64,000 nt of DNA from Tolypothrix brevis GSE-NOS-MK-07-07A (GTDB taxonomy: Bacteria > Cyanobacteriota > Cyanobacteriia > Cyanobacteriales > Nostocaceae): the NCBI GenBank assembly GCA_019358985.1, contig JAHHIJ010000033.1, positions 1-64,000 of the forward strand, read 5' to 3'. The translations under genes and the position numbers were made by a program. Positions 8,991 to 16,262 of this stretch are shown here, one piece after another (position 1 is the first letter of the stretch; the number at the start of each line of letters is the position of its first letter). The notes under the pieces are model-generated. The model did not search any database. It saw only the letters and a program-made list of their open reading frames with translations, and had not been told where the DNA came from.

Positions 8991-10172
8991 ATGAAATACA
9001 AGCCTTTTTATACCCTAAATTCTCTCCTGCCTTTTTCCATCATGGATCGCTACCTCACTAGCGAATTAATACCGCCATTTTTATTTGGTGTCGGAGCATT
9101 CTCATCAATTGGTGTCACAATTGATGCTGTATTTGAACTGGTGAGAAAAATAGTAGAATCCGGGCTACCAGTAGGAATTGCACTCCAAGTTTTTTTATTA
9201 ACCCTACCAAAGTTCATTGTTTTAGCCTTTCCCATGTCTACGCTCCTAGCTACTTTGATGACTTACAGTCGTCTTTCTAGCGAAAGCGAATTGATTGCTC
9301 TGCGAGGATGTGGCGTAAGTGTTTATCGCATGGTATTAACTGCGGTGTTTTTAAGTTTGCTGGTTACAGGATTGACATTTGCCTTTAACGAGGAAATTGC
9401 ACCAGCAGCAAGTTACCAAGCAGCTGTTACCTTAGAAAAAGCCCTAAAATCGGACAAACCACCTATTGCCAAACAGGATAACTTCCTCTATGCAGAAAAG
9501 CGAGATGTGAAGCAACCCGATGGCAAAAAGCAAAAAATTCTCATCCGCTTATATTACGCCGACCAATTTGATGGCGAGCGCTTCAGAGGTTTGACAATTA
9601 TAGATCGTTCCGACCAAAAAGCTCGGCAAGGTTTAAGTCAAATTGTCGTTGCAGATTCCGGCGAATGGAATCCATCGGAAAACACTTGGAATATTTACAA
9701 AGGTACCATTTATTTAGTAGCTCCTGATAGTTCTTATCGCAATATTGTGCGGTTTGAACAGCAACAATTACAATTGCCTCGCACAGCATTTGAACTAGCA
9801 CAAAAAAGCAAAGATTACGACCAAATGAATATCGCTCAAGCGCTAGAACAATTGGAAATAGAACGCCTAGGCGGTGATGATAAAAAAATTCGCAAACTGA
9901 AAATTCGGATTCAACAAAAATTAGCCTTGCCCTTTGTATGTGTAGTTTTTGGCTTAGTAGGCGCAGCTATGGGAAGCATACCACAGCGTACCGGGCGAGG
10001 AACCAGTTTTGGTATTAGTGTCATAGTTATTTTTTCATACTACTTACTTGGCTTTCTTACTAGTGCCTTAGGAGAGGCAAATGTTTTGTCTCCCTTTATG
10101 GCAGCTTGGTTGCCGGATTTTCTTGGTTTAGGGACAGGCATATTCTTATTGATACGAGTTGCCCAACGATGA
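8991..10172 (+). CDS. LptF/LptG (YjgP/YjgQ) family LPS export permease
   Basis: A 393-residue permease of the LptF/LptG family. Three N-terminal membrane segments (starting around LTSELIPPFLFGVGAF) are followed by a periplasmic beta-jellyroll region (about residues 150-290) and three C-terminal segments (LALPFVCVVFGLVGAAMGSI, GISVIVIFSYYLLGF, FLGLGTGIFLLI). With LptB it extracts LPS from the plasma membrane. Cyanobacteria often have a single LptF/G-type gene beside lptA and lptB, as here, which would imply a homodimer. An alternative start is ATG 9042 (MDRYLTSELI). Confidence 0.9.
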   Translation: MKYKPFYTLNSLLPFSIMDRYLTSELIPPFLFGVGAFSSIGVTIDAVFELVRKIVESGLPVGIALQVFLLTLPKFIVLAFPMSTLLATLMTYSRLSSESELIALRGCGVSVYRMVLTAVFLSLLVTGLTFAFNEEIAPAASYQAAVTLEKALKSDKPPIAKQDNFLYAEKRDVKQPDGKKQKILIRLYYADQFDGERFRGLTIIDRSDQKARQGLSQIVVADSGEWNPSENTWNIYKGTIYLVAPDSSYRNIVRFEQQQLQLPRTAFELAQKSKDYDQMNIAQALEQLEIERLGGDDKKIRKLKIRIQQKLALPFVCVVFGLVGAAMGSIPQRTGRGTSFGISVIVIFSYYLLGFLTSALGEANVLSPFMAAWLPDFLGLGTGIFLLIRVAQR

Positions 10173-10253
10173 ATTACAACACAAAATTAGTTAGAGAATT
10201 ATTGAGATTAAATCCGAATTGTCGGTTGCCAAATTATTTGACCACTTGACAAA

Positions 10254-10469
10254 TTAATGTCCATAAATAATAAACCCTTCAAAGGCGAAATGAACTAAAC
10301 AACGCGCAAAGTTAAACAGGGGTTCTTTGGGGTCACGGTCAGTTTTATACTGCTTTATGGCATCTTGGACATTTTGTGTAGTGAGGTTGTTTTTCAATTC
10401 AAAGGTAATGAGGGGTAAGCCGTTGATGAAAATCCCCATATCCAGCGATCGCGGAGCGCGAATATCCAA
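10254..10469 (-). pseudogene. Fragment of type I restriction subunit HsdR (N-terminal nuclease domain)
   Basis: About 71 codons reading MGIFINGLPLITFELKNNLT then VQDAIKQYKTDRDPKEPLFN. This is the PD-(D/E)xK nuclease core of HsdR (FELKN holds the E-x-K). The usual continuation after ARCLVHFA is lost; the frame ends within the left end of the Tn7-like element at 10254, and the N-terminal part upstream is also missing. It is a broken scrap, not a working enzyme. Confidence 0.75.
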
Positions 10470-10546
10470 CTTTTAGCAAATTAAGCTAGAAGCTCAGTGT
10501 CTTTAGACCTGGGTTGCTGACAATCTACTTATTTAACGTCAAATAT

Positions 10547-12160
10547 TTAAGTCCACTCTTTTCGGAAATCATATCTACCGGGAGCAAGGATGTCGTTTGG
10601 ATCTAGTGCCCTTTTCAGTTTTTGTAGTAATTTGCCATAATCATCTTTCGCTGGTGGTAGAGAATTCATCAATTGAGTACTTAAGCGATAAGGGATATAG
10701 CCCTCCAATAACAATTTCTGCATCATTTCATCATGGCATAAGAACGCACGCTCATCCTCTCCATCCACATCTCTGTCGTAAATAATGGCTACAGTCATAT
10801 CTATACTTCTTTCTGTTATGCATTGCAGCCCTACATTTGGCTCAAACTGATGTAGTTTCGCTGTTTCCTCAATAATTCTCAAAGCTGCTCTAACATGCTG
10901 TCCATCAAAGGGTACGCTTGGTGCTAACCAAATTATCCCACAACCATCTCTGTCAGGATCCATATTCGATGATGGCACGGGAGATTGCTTTCTCCAGTAA
11001 ACCATAGAGACAGCTTTTTCTGTTGGAATACCACGCTGGAGATTTTTGCTGTAGAGTAAGTCGATAGTATTTCTCAAGTCAATTCCAGTTATCCATTTAT
11101 AGAGTGGTCGAATTATTTCAGCAATTTGGGCTTTGCGAGCATCAAAGAAAATAAGTTTATCGACCGTTTTCTTCAATGCTTGTTTAATCAATTTCCGTTC
11201 TATCTGACCATGTTCTCTGCTGTTTGAATACAAGGCTCCCTCTCCAATCCATAAACCACCACCCCATGTTTTTCTTAATTTCTGCATTAAATCTGCTGAA
11301 AGGAGTGTTTTTCCATTAGCTTCTTTCCAAGGATACTGTTGTTTTGTCGAGAGCATTCTGTAGTCGTTAAATAGAACAAAACTATTTCTCATCAGTCCTT
11401 GCAACTTAAGTTTTCGTAGGGTATCAATGAATTCCTCAAGATGAGAATCATCGCTGATGGAATAGAAAAAGGACTGGAAATATTCCGGTTCTGGGAACAG
11501 CCATATTGTCATCTGGGTGACTATACCAAGGTTAGACTGGGTAAATATGCCATCGAAATAAGGTCCCACTCCCCATTTGTTAACCTTGGCTGCTTTGGCA
11601 TTGGCAAAGCGTTCAAATCCAGTGTGAATGCATTCTCCCGTTGGCAAGACGACTTCGAGTCCACAAACATGAGCAAATCTGTCCCCATAAGGTCCCTTGC
11701 CGACTCCCCTTTCTAAGATATTTCCTATCAAACTAGAATCAGGAGTGCTTCCGGTTACACTCATTAGCAAATTCGACTTTTTCTCCTGCATATACTCAAA
11801 CAATTGGCGCTGGGTTACACCAGGTTCTACAGTCACATAAGCCAACTTTTCATTGTAATCAATAATTCGATTTAGCCTGCCCAAGTCCATAATTACACAA
11901 CCATCCTGAGCTGGAACACTTGACCCATATCCCCAATTCTTTCCCTTGCTAATGGGATAAATTGGTGTTTTATATTGATTGGCGATTTGAACACATTCTT
12001 GAACTTCAGCACGATTGCCCGGTCGAATAATGGCTGGAACCGTTTGGGTTGTAGCAAATGTTGCGGTTTGCACAGCAGAAATTGTTGCTTCGTCCGTTAA
12101 GACATTCTCTGAACTGACGATATCTCGATACGCCTTCAGCAAATTTACTAAGTTTTCCAT
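10547..12160 (-). CDS. FAD-linked oxidase of the VAO/PCMH family
   Basis: A 537-residue flavoprotein. The N-terminal PCMH-type FAD domain (about residues 40-235) shows IIRPGNRAEVQECVQIANQY, ISKGKNWGYGSSVPAQDG and VTVEPGVTQRQLFEYMQE. The substrate domain follows, and the C-terminus ends KLKRALDPNDILAPGRYDF, as in 4-cresol dehydrogenase and vanillyl-alcohol oxidase. Enzymes of this group oxidise phenolic or benzylic substrates. The natural substrate here is unknown. It lies 148 bp downstream of a methyltransferase gene on the same strand, both inside the putative Tn7-like element, which suggests a small biosynthetic or modification cassette. No HIP1 site occurs in this gene, unlike the surrounding core genes. 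Confidence 0.82.
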   Translation of the reverse strand: MENLVNLLKAYRDIVSSENVLTDEATISAVQTATFATTQTVPAIIRPGNRAEVQECVQIANQYKTPIYPISKGKNWGYGSSVPAQDGCVIMDLGRLNRIIDYNEKLAYVTVEPGVTQRQLFEYMQEKKSNLLMSVTGSTPDSSLIGNILERGVGKGPYGDRFAHVCGLEVVLPTGECIHTGFERFANAKAAKVNKWGVGPYFDGIFTQSNLGIVTQMTIWLFPEPEYFQSFFYSISDDSHLEEFIDTLRKLKLQGLMRNSFVLFNDYRMLSTKQQYPWKEANGKTLLSADLMQKLRKTWGGGLWIGEGALYSNSREHGQIERKLIKQALKKTVDKLIFFDARKAQIAEIIRPLYKWITGIDLRNTIDLLYSKNLQRGIPTEKAVSMVYWRKQSPVPSSNMDPDRDGCGIIWLAPSVPFDGQHVRAALRIIEETAKLHQFEPNVGLQCITERSIDMTVAIIYDRDVDGEDERAFLCHDEMMQKLLLEGYIPYRLSTQLMNSLPPAKDDYGKLLQKLKRALDPNDILAPGRYDFRKEWT

Positions 12161-12215
12161 ATCCTATTTTCCTTCTTGTATTTTGTAAGTTTAGAGGGGA
12201 GTTAATATTTCGAGA

Positions 12216-12232
12216 CCCCAGCAAAGCTGGGG
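12216..12232. other. Small hairpin between methyltransferase and oxidase genes
   Basis: CCCCAGC, a 3-base loop and GCTGGGG form a stable 7-bp stem in the 148-bp gap between the two cargo genes. There is no T-run, so it may be an RNA-processing or attenuation hairpin rather than a terminator. Confidence 0.4.
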
Positions 12233-12308
12233 CACATCTTAATAGGGTAAAAGAGAATAATTTGTATCACACATGAGCGTGAAATGGTATAAACCAAATA
12301 ACGATCAT

Positions 12309-13151
12309 CTATTTTGATATGGGCTTTCGGGCAATTGTAATTTCTCCTGGACATACCATTAAGCTGGTGTCACGATCAAAATGAATGCGCCCATTCAACC
12401 TCATCTTGTGTGCTTTTGCCTGAGCAGCCTGGTGTTCGAGGTCGGATCGAATCCTCTCATTTTCAGCAAAATACTGTTGTGCAACTATTGAAGAATTAAT
12501 GTTGTAATTGAAAGATTGTTCACTCTGAATATCGACGAACCCTGCTTCAGTCAACCATCCGTATAACTCTTCTTTGGTAAGAAAATGACGATTGTCCGCT
12601 ACATCCTTCATATTGGCAAAAGTATCTTTCACTCTGGCAATCCCGCGTAGTTCGTCCCGTTCTTCTGGGTCATCAAACAACATTCCAAGGTTGACAAAGA
12701 TCCCTCCCGGTTGCAAAACTCGATAAATACTAGAGTAGAGATCAAGCTGACGGGAGCGCGGAATTTCATGGTTTGAACTCTTGATCATTACCCGGTCAAA
12801 AGAGTTTTCCGGGATTGATATCTGAGAGTCGCGTGAAGACATTGTTAAGACATCTCCCCAAATTACTTCAGCCTTCGCATCTGAAAGCTTCTTGCGAGCG
12901 AACTCCGCTTGCACACTGGAGTATTCAAGCACAAAGAGCTTCGGGCATCGGATCTGATGAGTTAGACAATACTGGTGAAGCCTCTTAGAAAGGTTTCCAT
13001 CTCCTGCCATTGCGTCAAGAACGTTTTCCACTCGCTCTGGATCTACAAGCTTGAGCATTTGATTAATTAATTGCTCATCAAATCCGTTAATTGTATCCTG
13101 GTCATAACTTCCGACTTGATCAAATCCGCTCTCTTTTTTGAGTGTAAACAT
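12309..13151 (-). CDS. Class I SAM-dependent methyltransferase
   Basis: A 280-residue methyltransferase. Motif I is VLDAMAGDGNLSKRL, a later motif is IYRVLQPGGIFVNLGMLF, and FLTKEELYGWLTEAGFVDI is typical of UbiE-like small-molecule enzymes. The acceptor is unknown. It is the first gene of a leftward pair with the VAO-type oxidase, and both fall between the Tn7-like ends. Methylation plus phenol oxidation would fit tailoring of an aromatic metabolite, but this is inference. No HIP1 octamers are present. About 400 bp of AT-rich leader, including the right transposon end, lies upstream. Confidence 0.8.
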   Translation of the reverse strand: MFTLKKESGFDQVGSYDQDTINGFDEQLINQMLKLVDPERVENVLDAMAGDGNLSKRLHQYCLTHQIRCPKLFVLEYSSVQAEFARKKLSDAKAEVIWGDVLTMSSRDSQISIPENSFDRVMIKSSNHEIPRSRQLDLYSSIYRVLQPGGIFVNLGMLFDDPEERDELRGIARVKDTFANMKDVADNRHFLTKEELYGWLTEAGFVDIQSEQSFNYNINSSIVAQQYFAENERIRSDLEHQAAQAKAHKMRLNGRIHFDRDTSLMVCPGEITIARKPISK

Positions 13152-13556
13152 TTCAAAGCTCCATTGATTACAAGTTAAATAGGCATTGCAGAATAAAGGG
13201 ATGAGTTAATACAAATTAAATTTAGACACGATCAACTTTTCCAGCAAAGTCGTACTAAATTCACGTATCTCATCTCAATCCCTTTTTGAAATGCTTTCGT
13301 GCCTTTACATCTTTATTTATGCATTTAAAAAATATATCCAACAGCACCCTTGAGGGTACTATTACAACCGTAATCCGGATTTCTCACCAGCAAGGTTGAT
13401 GTATGACATAACACACCACATTGGAAAGTTTAACGTTATTATTTTGTTAATGGTTAGCCAATACAATTGGACAACATAAGTTTGTTAATTGGGACATTAA
13501 TTTGGGAAAACGGACATTAAAGTGTCAACGCGGTCAAATAATTTGTCGCTCTACAT

Positions 13557-16262
13557 CTATTCCAAGTTTTGCAAACCCATCGCAATCTTACTATGCTTTT
13601 CAATCTGCCCCATCACTTGTTTTGCCCGTTGAATCACCACCGCAGGCAAACCAGCTAATCTTCCCGCTTCAATACCATAAGACTTATCAGCGCCTCCTGG
13701 CTGAACTTGATGCAAAAAGATAATTTGGTCGGGTAACTCCTTCACCGTCACCTGATAATTAGCAACATTCGGTAACATTGTCGCCAACTCATTCAGCTCA
13801 TGGTAATGTGTAGCAAAAATCGATCGCGATCGAATATCCACCGCTAAATATTCCGCCACCGCCCAAGCAATGGAAAGACCGTCAAAAGTCGCCGTACCCC
13901 GTCCAATTTCATCTAACAAGACAAGCGATCGCGAGGTTGCATGATTAAGAATATTAGCCGTTTCATTCATCTCCACCATAAAAGTAGATTGACCCGTCGC
14001 CAAATCATCCACCGCACCTACCCGCGTAAAAATGCGATCGCACACTCCCAACTTAGCTTCATAAGCCGGCACAAAACTACCAATTTGCGCCATAAGTTGT
14101 ATTAAGCCCACCTGCCTCAAATAACAACTCTTACCACTGGCATTTGGACCCGTAAGAATGATTAAATCAGGATGGTCAGTGGGAGAGGGAGGGATGGGGA
14201 GAGGGGGGGATGGGGAGAAAGAAGAATTATTCTCCTTATCTCCTTGTCCCCTTGTCCCCTTGTCCCCTTGTCTCCCATGTCCTCCTCTCCCTTCCTCCTT
14301 GGCGCTCTTGGCATCTTGGCGGTTCGTTCCTCCAAGCTGCGTCGAATTCGGCACAAAAAACCCAGCCGGCAAAGACTGTTCCACCACCGGATGACGCCCA
14401 TCCACAATCAAAATCTCCCTTCCCGCAACCATCTCCGGACGACAGAAACCTTGATTTACCCCCAACTCAGCCAAACCGCACAACACATCAGATGCTGCTA
14501 CCGCACGGGAAAGAATGCGAATTACCTCAGCATGTGTCCCCACCTCATCACGCAAAGCTGTAAAAATCTCATATTCCAACTGATTTAAATCATCCCGTGC
14601 CGTGAGAATTCGTGCTTCTCGTTCCTTCAACTCCGGGGTGATGTAACGTTCCTCATTCGTCAGCGTTTGCTTGCGGATATAATTACTGGGGACAGAATCC
14701 GCCTTAGCACGAGAAATACTGATATAATAGCCAAAAGTCTTATTAAAACCTACCTTCAACGTCGGAATTCCCGTCTTTGCTCTTTCGTCAACTTCCAAAT
14801 TAGCAATCCATTGCCGATCGCCTTCCACAGTTATTTTTTGCTCATCCAGCAGAGCATTCACACCTTGGCGAATCAACCCACCTTCAGTTAAATATATCGG
14901 TGGCGACTCCACCAAATGTGCGTGTAACTTTTCTGCCAACTCTGACAAAACAGGCGGCACTTTCTGCAAAGCTTTCAAAAAGGGAGAACGAGCATCAGCC
15001 ACCAAGCTCGCTAATTCTGGTAAACGCGCCAAAGAATCAGCCAAAGCCACCAAATCTCGCGCATTTGCTGTACCAGAACCGGCGCGCCCTGTCAATCGTT
15101 CCAAGTCATAAATTTGACGTAACAATTGCCGCAATTCTTTACGCAGAGGTGTATTTTCGATTAACTCTGCGATGGTATCTTGCCGCGCCCGAATGCCTTT
15201 AATATCGAGTAGCGGTTGCAACAACCATCTTCTCAAGGCACGTCCACCCATCGCCGTGCTGGTTCTATCCAACGCCCAAAGTAAAGAACCGTGAAAAGTG
15301 CCATCGCGGACAGTTTGCGTAATTTCCAGGTTGCGGCGAGTTTGATTGTCAACAATTAAATAATCAGTAATTGTATATGTGCGTAATGCTTGGAGGAAAA
15401 CCGGATGTTCTTTTTGAGTATCTTCCAGGTATTCTAAAAGACCACCAGCAGTGCGGACAGCGAGGGGAAGATGATCGCAACCTAAACCTTCAAGCGATCG
15501 CACTTTGAATTTATGTAATAATTTAGCTCTTGCTTCACCTTGAGAAAATGGAACTTGCGATCGCAAAGCATAACAAAACGATGGTGGCAAACATTCCGGC
15601 AGATGTTCCGATTTTTCCCCAGGACGCAGTAAACTACCTAAATCTGGCGCATTCGTCGGAATTAACACTTCCGAAGGTTGCAAGCGCATTAACTCTTGTG
15701 TCAGATGTTCTAAATTACTGGCTTGGGTAGTTAAAAATTCCCCAGTTGATATATCTGCGTAAGCCAAACCCCAATGTTCCCCAGCAATTACCACAGCAGC
15801 AAGGTAATTATTGCGACTTGCTTTTAGCATTCCATCTTCCAGCAAAGTACCGGGGGTAAGGATGCGCGTAATTTCCCGACGTACCAACCTTCCAGCAGCT
15901 TCCGCAGCATCTTCCACTTGGTCGCATATTACCACAGCGTAGCCTTTTTCCACCAGCAGCGTCGCGTAGCGTTCCCAAGAGTGATGGGGTACACCAGACA
16001 TTGCCACTCGTCCTTGTTCTCCAGCTTGTTTGCTCGTCAGGACAAGTTCTAACTGCTGCGCTAGCGTCACCGCATCTTCAAAGTAGCATTCAAAGAAATC
16101 TCCGACCCGATACAGCAACATCGCGTGAGGATACTTTTCTTTGGTTTCGATATAATGCTGGTACATTTGACTGAGCTTACTCCGATCCACCGCTCGATGG
16201 TCAGAGATAAATGTACTGGCATCGTGTTTGTTGGATGGGGTTGCAGAGTGAGAAGCAGTCAT
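13557..16262 (-). CDS. mutS: DNA mismatch repair protein MutS with in-frame repeat insertion
   Basis: A 901-residue MutS1. The mismatch-contact motif [11 protein letters not shown] is near the N-terminus. Connector, core and clamp domains follow, and then the ATPase with Walker [11 protein letters not shown], Walker [21 protein letters not shown] and the switch [10 protein letters not shown]. About residues 640-696, just before Walker A, hold a non-conserved stretch rich in Gly, Gln, Ser and Pro ([15 protein letters not shown], then [12 protein letters not shown]). It is encoded by low-complexity heptamer-type DNA inserted in frame. The frame is intact, so the protein probably works. The stop codon lies 1 bp from the right terminus of the Tn7-like element. 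Confidence 0.95.
14170..14345. repeat. Low-complexity heptamer-type repeat inside mutS
   Basis: Purine-rich GGGAGAGGGAGGGATGGGG is followed by pyrimidine-rich repeats of CTTGTCCC and then CTTGGCG/CTTGGCA words (14300-14335). Similar DNA interrupts the dihydroorotase gene near 39200, and the TCTTGGCGGTTCGTT word recurs in the ABC ATPase gene near 46360. Confidence 0.8.

Follow-up and report, generated by a model that had tools for sequence, protein, structure and literature searches.

Probable remains of a type V-K CRISPR-associated transposon downstream of mutS in Tolypothrix brevis

Type V-K CRISPR-associated transposons (CASTs), such as ShCAST/Tn7747 and AnCAST, are described as carrying a truncated repeat with an anchor spacer of 17 nt; this spacer matches the gene next to the element, and a GTN protospacer-adjacent motif (PAM) lies 46-82 nt from the transposon end (PMC9938897). 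Their att sites are given as 'mostly tRNA genes' in PMC11406308, and in the naming of the CAST literature the att side is the left end (LE) and the tnsB side the right end (RE) (PMC9938897, PMC10949235). Here we analyse a 64-kb window (the whole stretch of DNA under study) from the 6.52-Mb draft genome, in 74 contigs, of Tolypothrix brevis GSE-NOS-MK-07-07A, where an earlier note, made from the letters alone, had pointed to a two-ended unit at 10220-13555, between lptF and mutS. According to our analysis this unit is, with a probability of roughly 0.85, the decayed remnant of a type V-K CAST, or of two such elements in tandem, which once homed to the 3' end of mutS.

In the architecture and asymmetry of its ends, and in having the att-side end downstream of a conserved gene, the unit is similar to the described V-K CASTs, and the GTG standing in the place of the PAM lies within the published distance range (PMC9938897). 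Unlike them, it showed no tnsB, tnsC, tniQ, cas12k, CRISPR repeats or anchor spacer in our searches, and its att site would be a protein gene, mutS, rather than one of the tRNA genes that PMC11406308 mostly names. The word mutS is absent from the main text of three CAST papers (PMC9938897, PMC11406308, PMC10293859); their supplementary tables are outside this statement, and a prior report is possible. Cas12k and mutS are mentioned together in PMC10821919, PMC8232306, PMC13361357 and PMC8632213, which by title deal with genome editing or DNA endonucleases. Two ends without a transposase also recall miniature inverted-repeat transposable elements, but the unit has one copy with exact blocks, holds kilobase cargo and gives no sign of amplification.

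Both ends start with TGT and possess, at offset 10 and in inverse orientation, the common 14-base block CAAATTATTTGACC, as had been read from the letters; it occurs in exactly two copies in the draft genome, at 10230-10243(+) and 13532-13545(-), and the same block read backwards, taken as a control pattern, gave one match. With up to two mismatches allowed, the two end motifs match the window at 8 places, 6 of which are within these ends. The second block and the further related blocks of the right end were confirmed as well, the spacer before the second block being 2 bases in the left end, as in the tnsB-side end of the CAST of genome G058, and 3 bases in the right end, as in its att-side end.

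The ends were scored with matrices from whose training ends the window was excluded. With the first pair, whose att-side training ends were partly found with a 20-mer from the window, the left end reached 61.4 bits as a tnsB-side end versus 13.5 as an att-side end, and the right end 51.4 bits as att-side versus 2.9 as tnsB-side. A second pair, whose training loci had been selected through searches for TniQ, TnsB or mutS (one end on contig C13 apart), gave 56.7 bits (left) and 47.4 bits (right), against maxima of 9.3 (left type) and 17.8 (right type) bits in 100 simulated first-order Markov windows of 64 kb, which agrees with the judgement of the earlier note that such ends are unlikely to arise by chance. 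One may point to the draft assembly and to the missing target duplication to argue for a chance resemblance or an assembly artefact, but with scores so far above those of the simulated windows, and with an att-side end just past mutS recurring in three other genera, we find this hardly credible. Independent support for the ends comes from their positions beside tnsB and beside mutS in other genomes and from a target duplication in genome G001.

The asymmetric TGT-starting ends with repeated TnsB-type blocks, taken at the level of sequence, support the assignment of both ends to the Tn7-like, CRISPR-associated kind, which the earlier note had suggested, and the end-type scores point to type V-K. 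Reference loci were taken around TniQ genes of the family genomes, and the scan of fetched loci kept at most three hits per end type and locus above 25 bits, repeats omitted. Such ends were present in 10 of 20 loci that had been selected for having a short TniQ (168-262 aa); a further 20 loci carried other TniQ genes and gave a single, weak match (L158). In G058 the whole plan can be followed: att-side end, CRISPR array, Cas12k, MerR regulator, TniQ, TnsC, TnsB and tnsB-side end. A non-CRISPR Tn7-like or Tn5053-like element could be thought of as the source, since contig C36 of the same genome (L108:2901-6567) has a 309-aa TniQ preceded by a single long frame in which TnsA-like, TnsB-like and TniB/AAA parts are fused. 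This locus is probably a Tn7-like element from a different class that has suffered an internal deletion, but no such ends lie on C36, and the distribution of the ends over the TniQ loci, together with the match of the inner right end to mutS-side V-K CASTs, makes this source very improbable.

The most telling comparison is that with mutS loci of relatives. Matches to mutS were obtained in 77 genomes, and 30 loci, including our own, were examined, most of them extending 1.5 kb beyond mutS. Three of the other 29 loci, belonging to three genera, have an att-side end above 25 bits within about 15 bp of the mutS stop codon (G010, 65.6 bits; G040, 41.0 bits; G041, 28.9 bits); the best scores just past mutS in L059 (3.1 bits) and L071 (-10.4 bits) are below this threshold and were not counted. 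In G010 a complete V-K CAST of about 17.4 kb begins 4 bp past the mutS stop, with Cas12k, MerR regulator, TnsB, TnsC and TniQ and with HsdR, HsdS and an N6 methylase as cargo. It has the same att site, orientation and end subgroup as the window unit and a matching inner att-side sequence, but differs in its full machinery, its cargo and the gene on its tnsB side. The anchor spacer of G010 matches the mutS 3' end at 17 of 17 positions (18 with the neighbouring base) and that of G040 at 16 of 17; each is followed by CTTTCAACCC, and each mutS site has a GTN PAM. Cas12k (960-979 bits) is found about 1.3-1.5 kb inside the end in both genomes; in G040 it is of full length and adjoins the transposon end, and the contig breaks off shortly afterwards. 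Anchor-type matches of 13-18 nt were seen in 8 of 14 other att-side-type ends, a count from a test of 17 ends which omits both window ends and the inner C13 end, and in which L191 offered only 127 nt inside its end.

The inner right-end sequence of the window is 84% identical to G040 over 82 nt and 83% to G010 over 70 nt, and among 18 att-side ends compared only these two show the likeness; homology to a complete element, that of G010, is thus present beyond the end blocks. The match ends about 167 nt inside, short of the place of the anchor spacer in G010 and G040. By homology with these two genomes the GTG of the window (Table 1) takes a position within the 46-82 nt range. These matches support mutS as an RNA-guided att site in the relatives, as far as sequence comparison can tell, and with it the proposal of the earlier note that mutS was the target. 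The 3' end of mutS, to which anchor spacers match in two genera, would accordingly be an att site of V-K CASTs that lies in a protein-coding gene, and the mutS-directed anchor spacer of G010 offers a natural, testable guide.

Table 1. Features of the unit and its flanks (positions in the 64-kb window)
Feature	Position	Strand	Basis or remark
lptF/lptG permease, other flank of the unit	8991..10172	+	profile and gene-order comparison
tnsB-side end (RE)	10220..10278	+	two TnsB-type blocks; likeness to the intact CASTs of G010 and G058 fades after AAACCC
71-aa frame with hsdR N-terminal scrap (PF04313)	10254..10469	-	HSDR_N profile 125-190; overlaps the left end
FAD-linked oxidase, FAD_binding_4 (PF01565), 537 aa	10547..12160	-	cargo gene
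S-adenosylmethionine (SAM) methyltransferase, 280 aa	12309..13151	-	cargo gene
Inner part of att-side end	13389..13470	-	shared with the mutS-side CAST ends of G040 and G010 alone
CRISPR/att-side end (LE) with TnsB-type blocks	13471..13555	-	matrix scores
mutS, 3' end as presumed att site	13557..16262	-	homology with relatives
Presumed anchor protospacer in mutS 3' end	13597..13613	-	homologous to the spacer-matched stretch of G010 and G040
GTG, presumed GTN PAM for Cas12k	13614..13616	-	58 nt from the transposon end (by eye)

The interior of the unit is as the earlier note had listed it, with an hsdR scrap, an oxidase (claimed there as VAO-type) and a methyltransferase and without transposition genes: tblastn with the Cas12k, CvkR-like, TnsB, TnsC and TniQ proteins of G058 gave no match in the window, and no CRISPR repeats were found in the unit. 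The hsdR scrap is probably a leftover of an earlier restriction-modification cargo; it gave no tblastn match at 1e-4 to the type I restriction-modification genes of the G010 CAST. The cut-short inner right end, and the scrap pressed against the left end, look like the decay of a larger element. We propose that Cas12k, with the truncated anchor CRISPR RNA (crRNA) of the element, would have bound the mutS 3' end at the GTG PAM, and that TnsB, TnsC and TniQ would have inserted the att-side end right after the mutS stop codon, some 58 nt farther downstream. Later internal deletions may have removed the CRISPR array, the anchor crRNA, cas12k, the regulator, tniQ, tnsC and tnsB, leaving both ends, the hsdR scrap and a foreign pair of oxidase and methyltransferase genes, and lptF would have come to lie alongside through a rearrangement that took place at the tnsB-side end, on its outer edge or close to it. 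It would mean that shells of V-K transposons can outlast their machinery while keeping cargo, and that surveys starting from tnsB or cas12k would miss such shells.

The decay may have involved more than one element. Only 6 of the first 11 bases agree between the two ends of the window, compared with 11 of 11 in G058, G001, L193 and C62 and 10 of 11 in G010, the five other two-ended units, which suggests that the two ends may derive from two elements. As a form of the explanation favoured here, and compatible with it, one can therefore suppose that left and right ends came from different CASTs, present as tandem or inverted copies, and that a deletion or recombination event between these left behind the DNA that now separates the ends. 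Ends that are nested or that abut at a single place are indeed known from C13, from contig C78 of G003, from G058 and from L190, and the start of the right end, TGTAGAGCGAC, recurs in solitary ends at C35 and at contig C84 of G001. The conserved blocks are nevertheless close in both ends, both ends resemble the G010/G058 subgroup, and the same pattern could arise by drift in the 7 variable bases, so that we hold the two-element origin to be a serious option that falls a little short of even odds. As a separate observation, AGCGACAGATTATTTGAC-type ends at C35:2730 and C61:63064-63119 in our genome and at C84:201 in G001 are solitary or palindromic, with no clear further blocks.

The earlier note had supposed that the unit, lacking transposition genes, would have to be moved in trans. 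In the strongest form of this idea the unit is a working non-autonomous cassette, a 'passenger CAST' of cargo with two TnsB-bound ends, which a co-resident V-K CAST would move and its Cas12k and anchor crRNA would aim at mutS; if true, one mutS-homing CAST lineage would serve several passenger cassettes. Both ends do keep TnsB-type blocks, two-ended relatives can be as short as 346 bp (L193) or 609 bp (contig C62), and a complete CAST with a 5-bp duplication is present in a congener. However, genome-wide searches for TnsB and TniQ, the decisive parts, gave neither protein in a V-K form: the best TnsB match, at 26%, is in the TnsA-like fused frame on C36, and the sole TniQ family match lies beside that frame. 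A Mu-transpos_C search of the genome had no match either, but its controls were silent too, and it was not used as evidence of absence. One cas12k was met, on contig C13, split over two frames by a frameshift. With no V-K TnsB or TniQ and with the only cas12k met being frameshifted, movement in trans today is unsupported. It also speaks against a working cassette that the unit with exact blocks has one copy in our genome, that no pair of filled and empty lptF-mutS sites exists among the mutS loci examined, that there is no target duplication, common as such a lack is, that the ends differ from each other in their first 11 bases, and that the hsdR scrap and the cut-short right end look like deletion. 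The idea thus appears to us unlikely.

The genome also holds other such units. On C13 (L109:9943-13460) lies a degraded V-K CAST with a MerR regulator, the two-frame cas12k, a CRISPR array and two nested end arrays with a 14-nt anchor match, the whole adjoining a tRNA-like 3' end (by eye); no tnsB, tnsC or tniQ match was obtained on this contig, and its array spacers do not match the flanks of the window unit (at best 12 of the first 17). The 609-bp two-ended unit on C62 (L112:1999-2607) has ends of another CAST type (TGTACATTCGC), mismatched flanking 5-mers and a TniQ scrap inside, by which it too looks like a deletion product, and this counts against reading it as a working cassette. Taken together, the C13 remnant and the C62 unit suggest that V-K CASTs arrived and decayed in this lineage. 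The search for complete elements with related ends, which the earlier note had proposed, led to the complete CASTs of G010 and G058, and none with the exact blocks was found elsewhere in our genome. The 346-bp unit mentioned above (L193:5260-5605), with both V-K end types, comes from a Nostocales metagenome-assembled genome (Centralia_MAG_434), and no CAST protein was seen in the 5.9 kb examined there.

Against the decayed V-K CAST a number of points have to be set. No end above 25 bits was present at 26 of the 29 other mutS loci, and no anchor was seen at the mutS-side end of G041 (L286, about 1800-2030), a degenerate end with an adjoining Cas12k scrap; with its weak score this locus appears to represent a further CAST that decayed at mutS. 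The right end of the window itself has no anchor spacer match of at least 12 nt to the flank, so that homing is deduced from relatives, and a single 13-nt match between the left end and its own flank is taken as chance. The training ends, though the window was excluded, were mostly located through motifs modelled on its block, and the scores therefore support the type of the ends more than their discovery. The genome is a draft in 74 contigs, and tnsC and cas12k were not searched through the whole of it. The neighbours of mutS differ among congeners, and the lptF side was not reconstructed. The flanking 5-mers, CGAAT and TCTAT, do not match, as the earlier note had stated, and there is no 5-bp target duplication; since only one of the five other two-ended units is duplicated (G001, TTAAG), the missing duplication says little, and for the same reason the mismatch was dropped as a sign of rearrangement, for which the note had taken it.

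That the lptF junction is a later rearrangement is nonetheless probable from gene order. A CBS-CP12 gene comes after lptF in three congeners, and next to it stands, in opposite orientation, the block that the window has at 58.6 kb; the CBS-CP12 gene has no match in our genome. Strains with lptF beside mutS but without the insert, which the earlier note had hoped to compare, did not turn up: lptF stands beside mutS in none of 42 loci with a mutS match (the 30 family loci, with longer pieces from some of these genomes; most extend 1.5 kb beyond mutS). A clean inversion from the unit to about 58.6 kb was considered; it fits the lptF side only and was abandoned, since in congeners different genes adjoin mutS and the block at 58.7 kb; part of this comparison left out matches below 300 bases.

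The cargo appears to be foreign, as had been supposed. Homologues of the flavin adenine dinucleotide (FAD)-linked oxidase are found in 15 of 217 family genomes, our own included (E 1e-20); four congeners, one of them only 54% complete, were searched and gave none. Thirteen loci were fetched around oxidase homologues or their contigs, and in 2 of the 5 tested by tblastn the methyltransferase adjoins the oxidase homologue (whole in G074, partial in G162), which suggests that the two genes probably travel as a pair. The scarcity of HIP1 sites, taken by the earlier note as another sign of transfer, is real, as none of the 67 sites in the window lies in the oxidase or methyltransferase gene, but as a sign it is weak: only about 2.6 would be expected in the two genes, and one site, at 10445, is within the element in the hsdR scrap. 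In a plasmid collection no similar unit was found; 4 records had short pieces of the DNA and 37 matched by oxidase protein, all below 60% identity.

In G195 (L272:6851-10346) an oxidase homologue lies, as judged from translations, inside a peptide-synthetase gene cluster. A solitary att-side-like end (37 bits) overlaps the last gene of this cluster, which terminates 45 nt in from the outer edge of that end; neither a partner end nor a CAST protein was found on the contig. The cargo methyltransferase also gave a PADLOC mad2 match of 56 bits, which probably reflects only a shared methyltransferase fold. Within mutS, Rfam microRNA hits near 14.2 kb were below threshold and were taken as low-complexity noise; the low-complexity stretch at 14170-14330 is in frame, and the length differs in the congener G003 (901 vs 882 aa).

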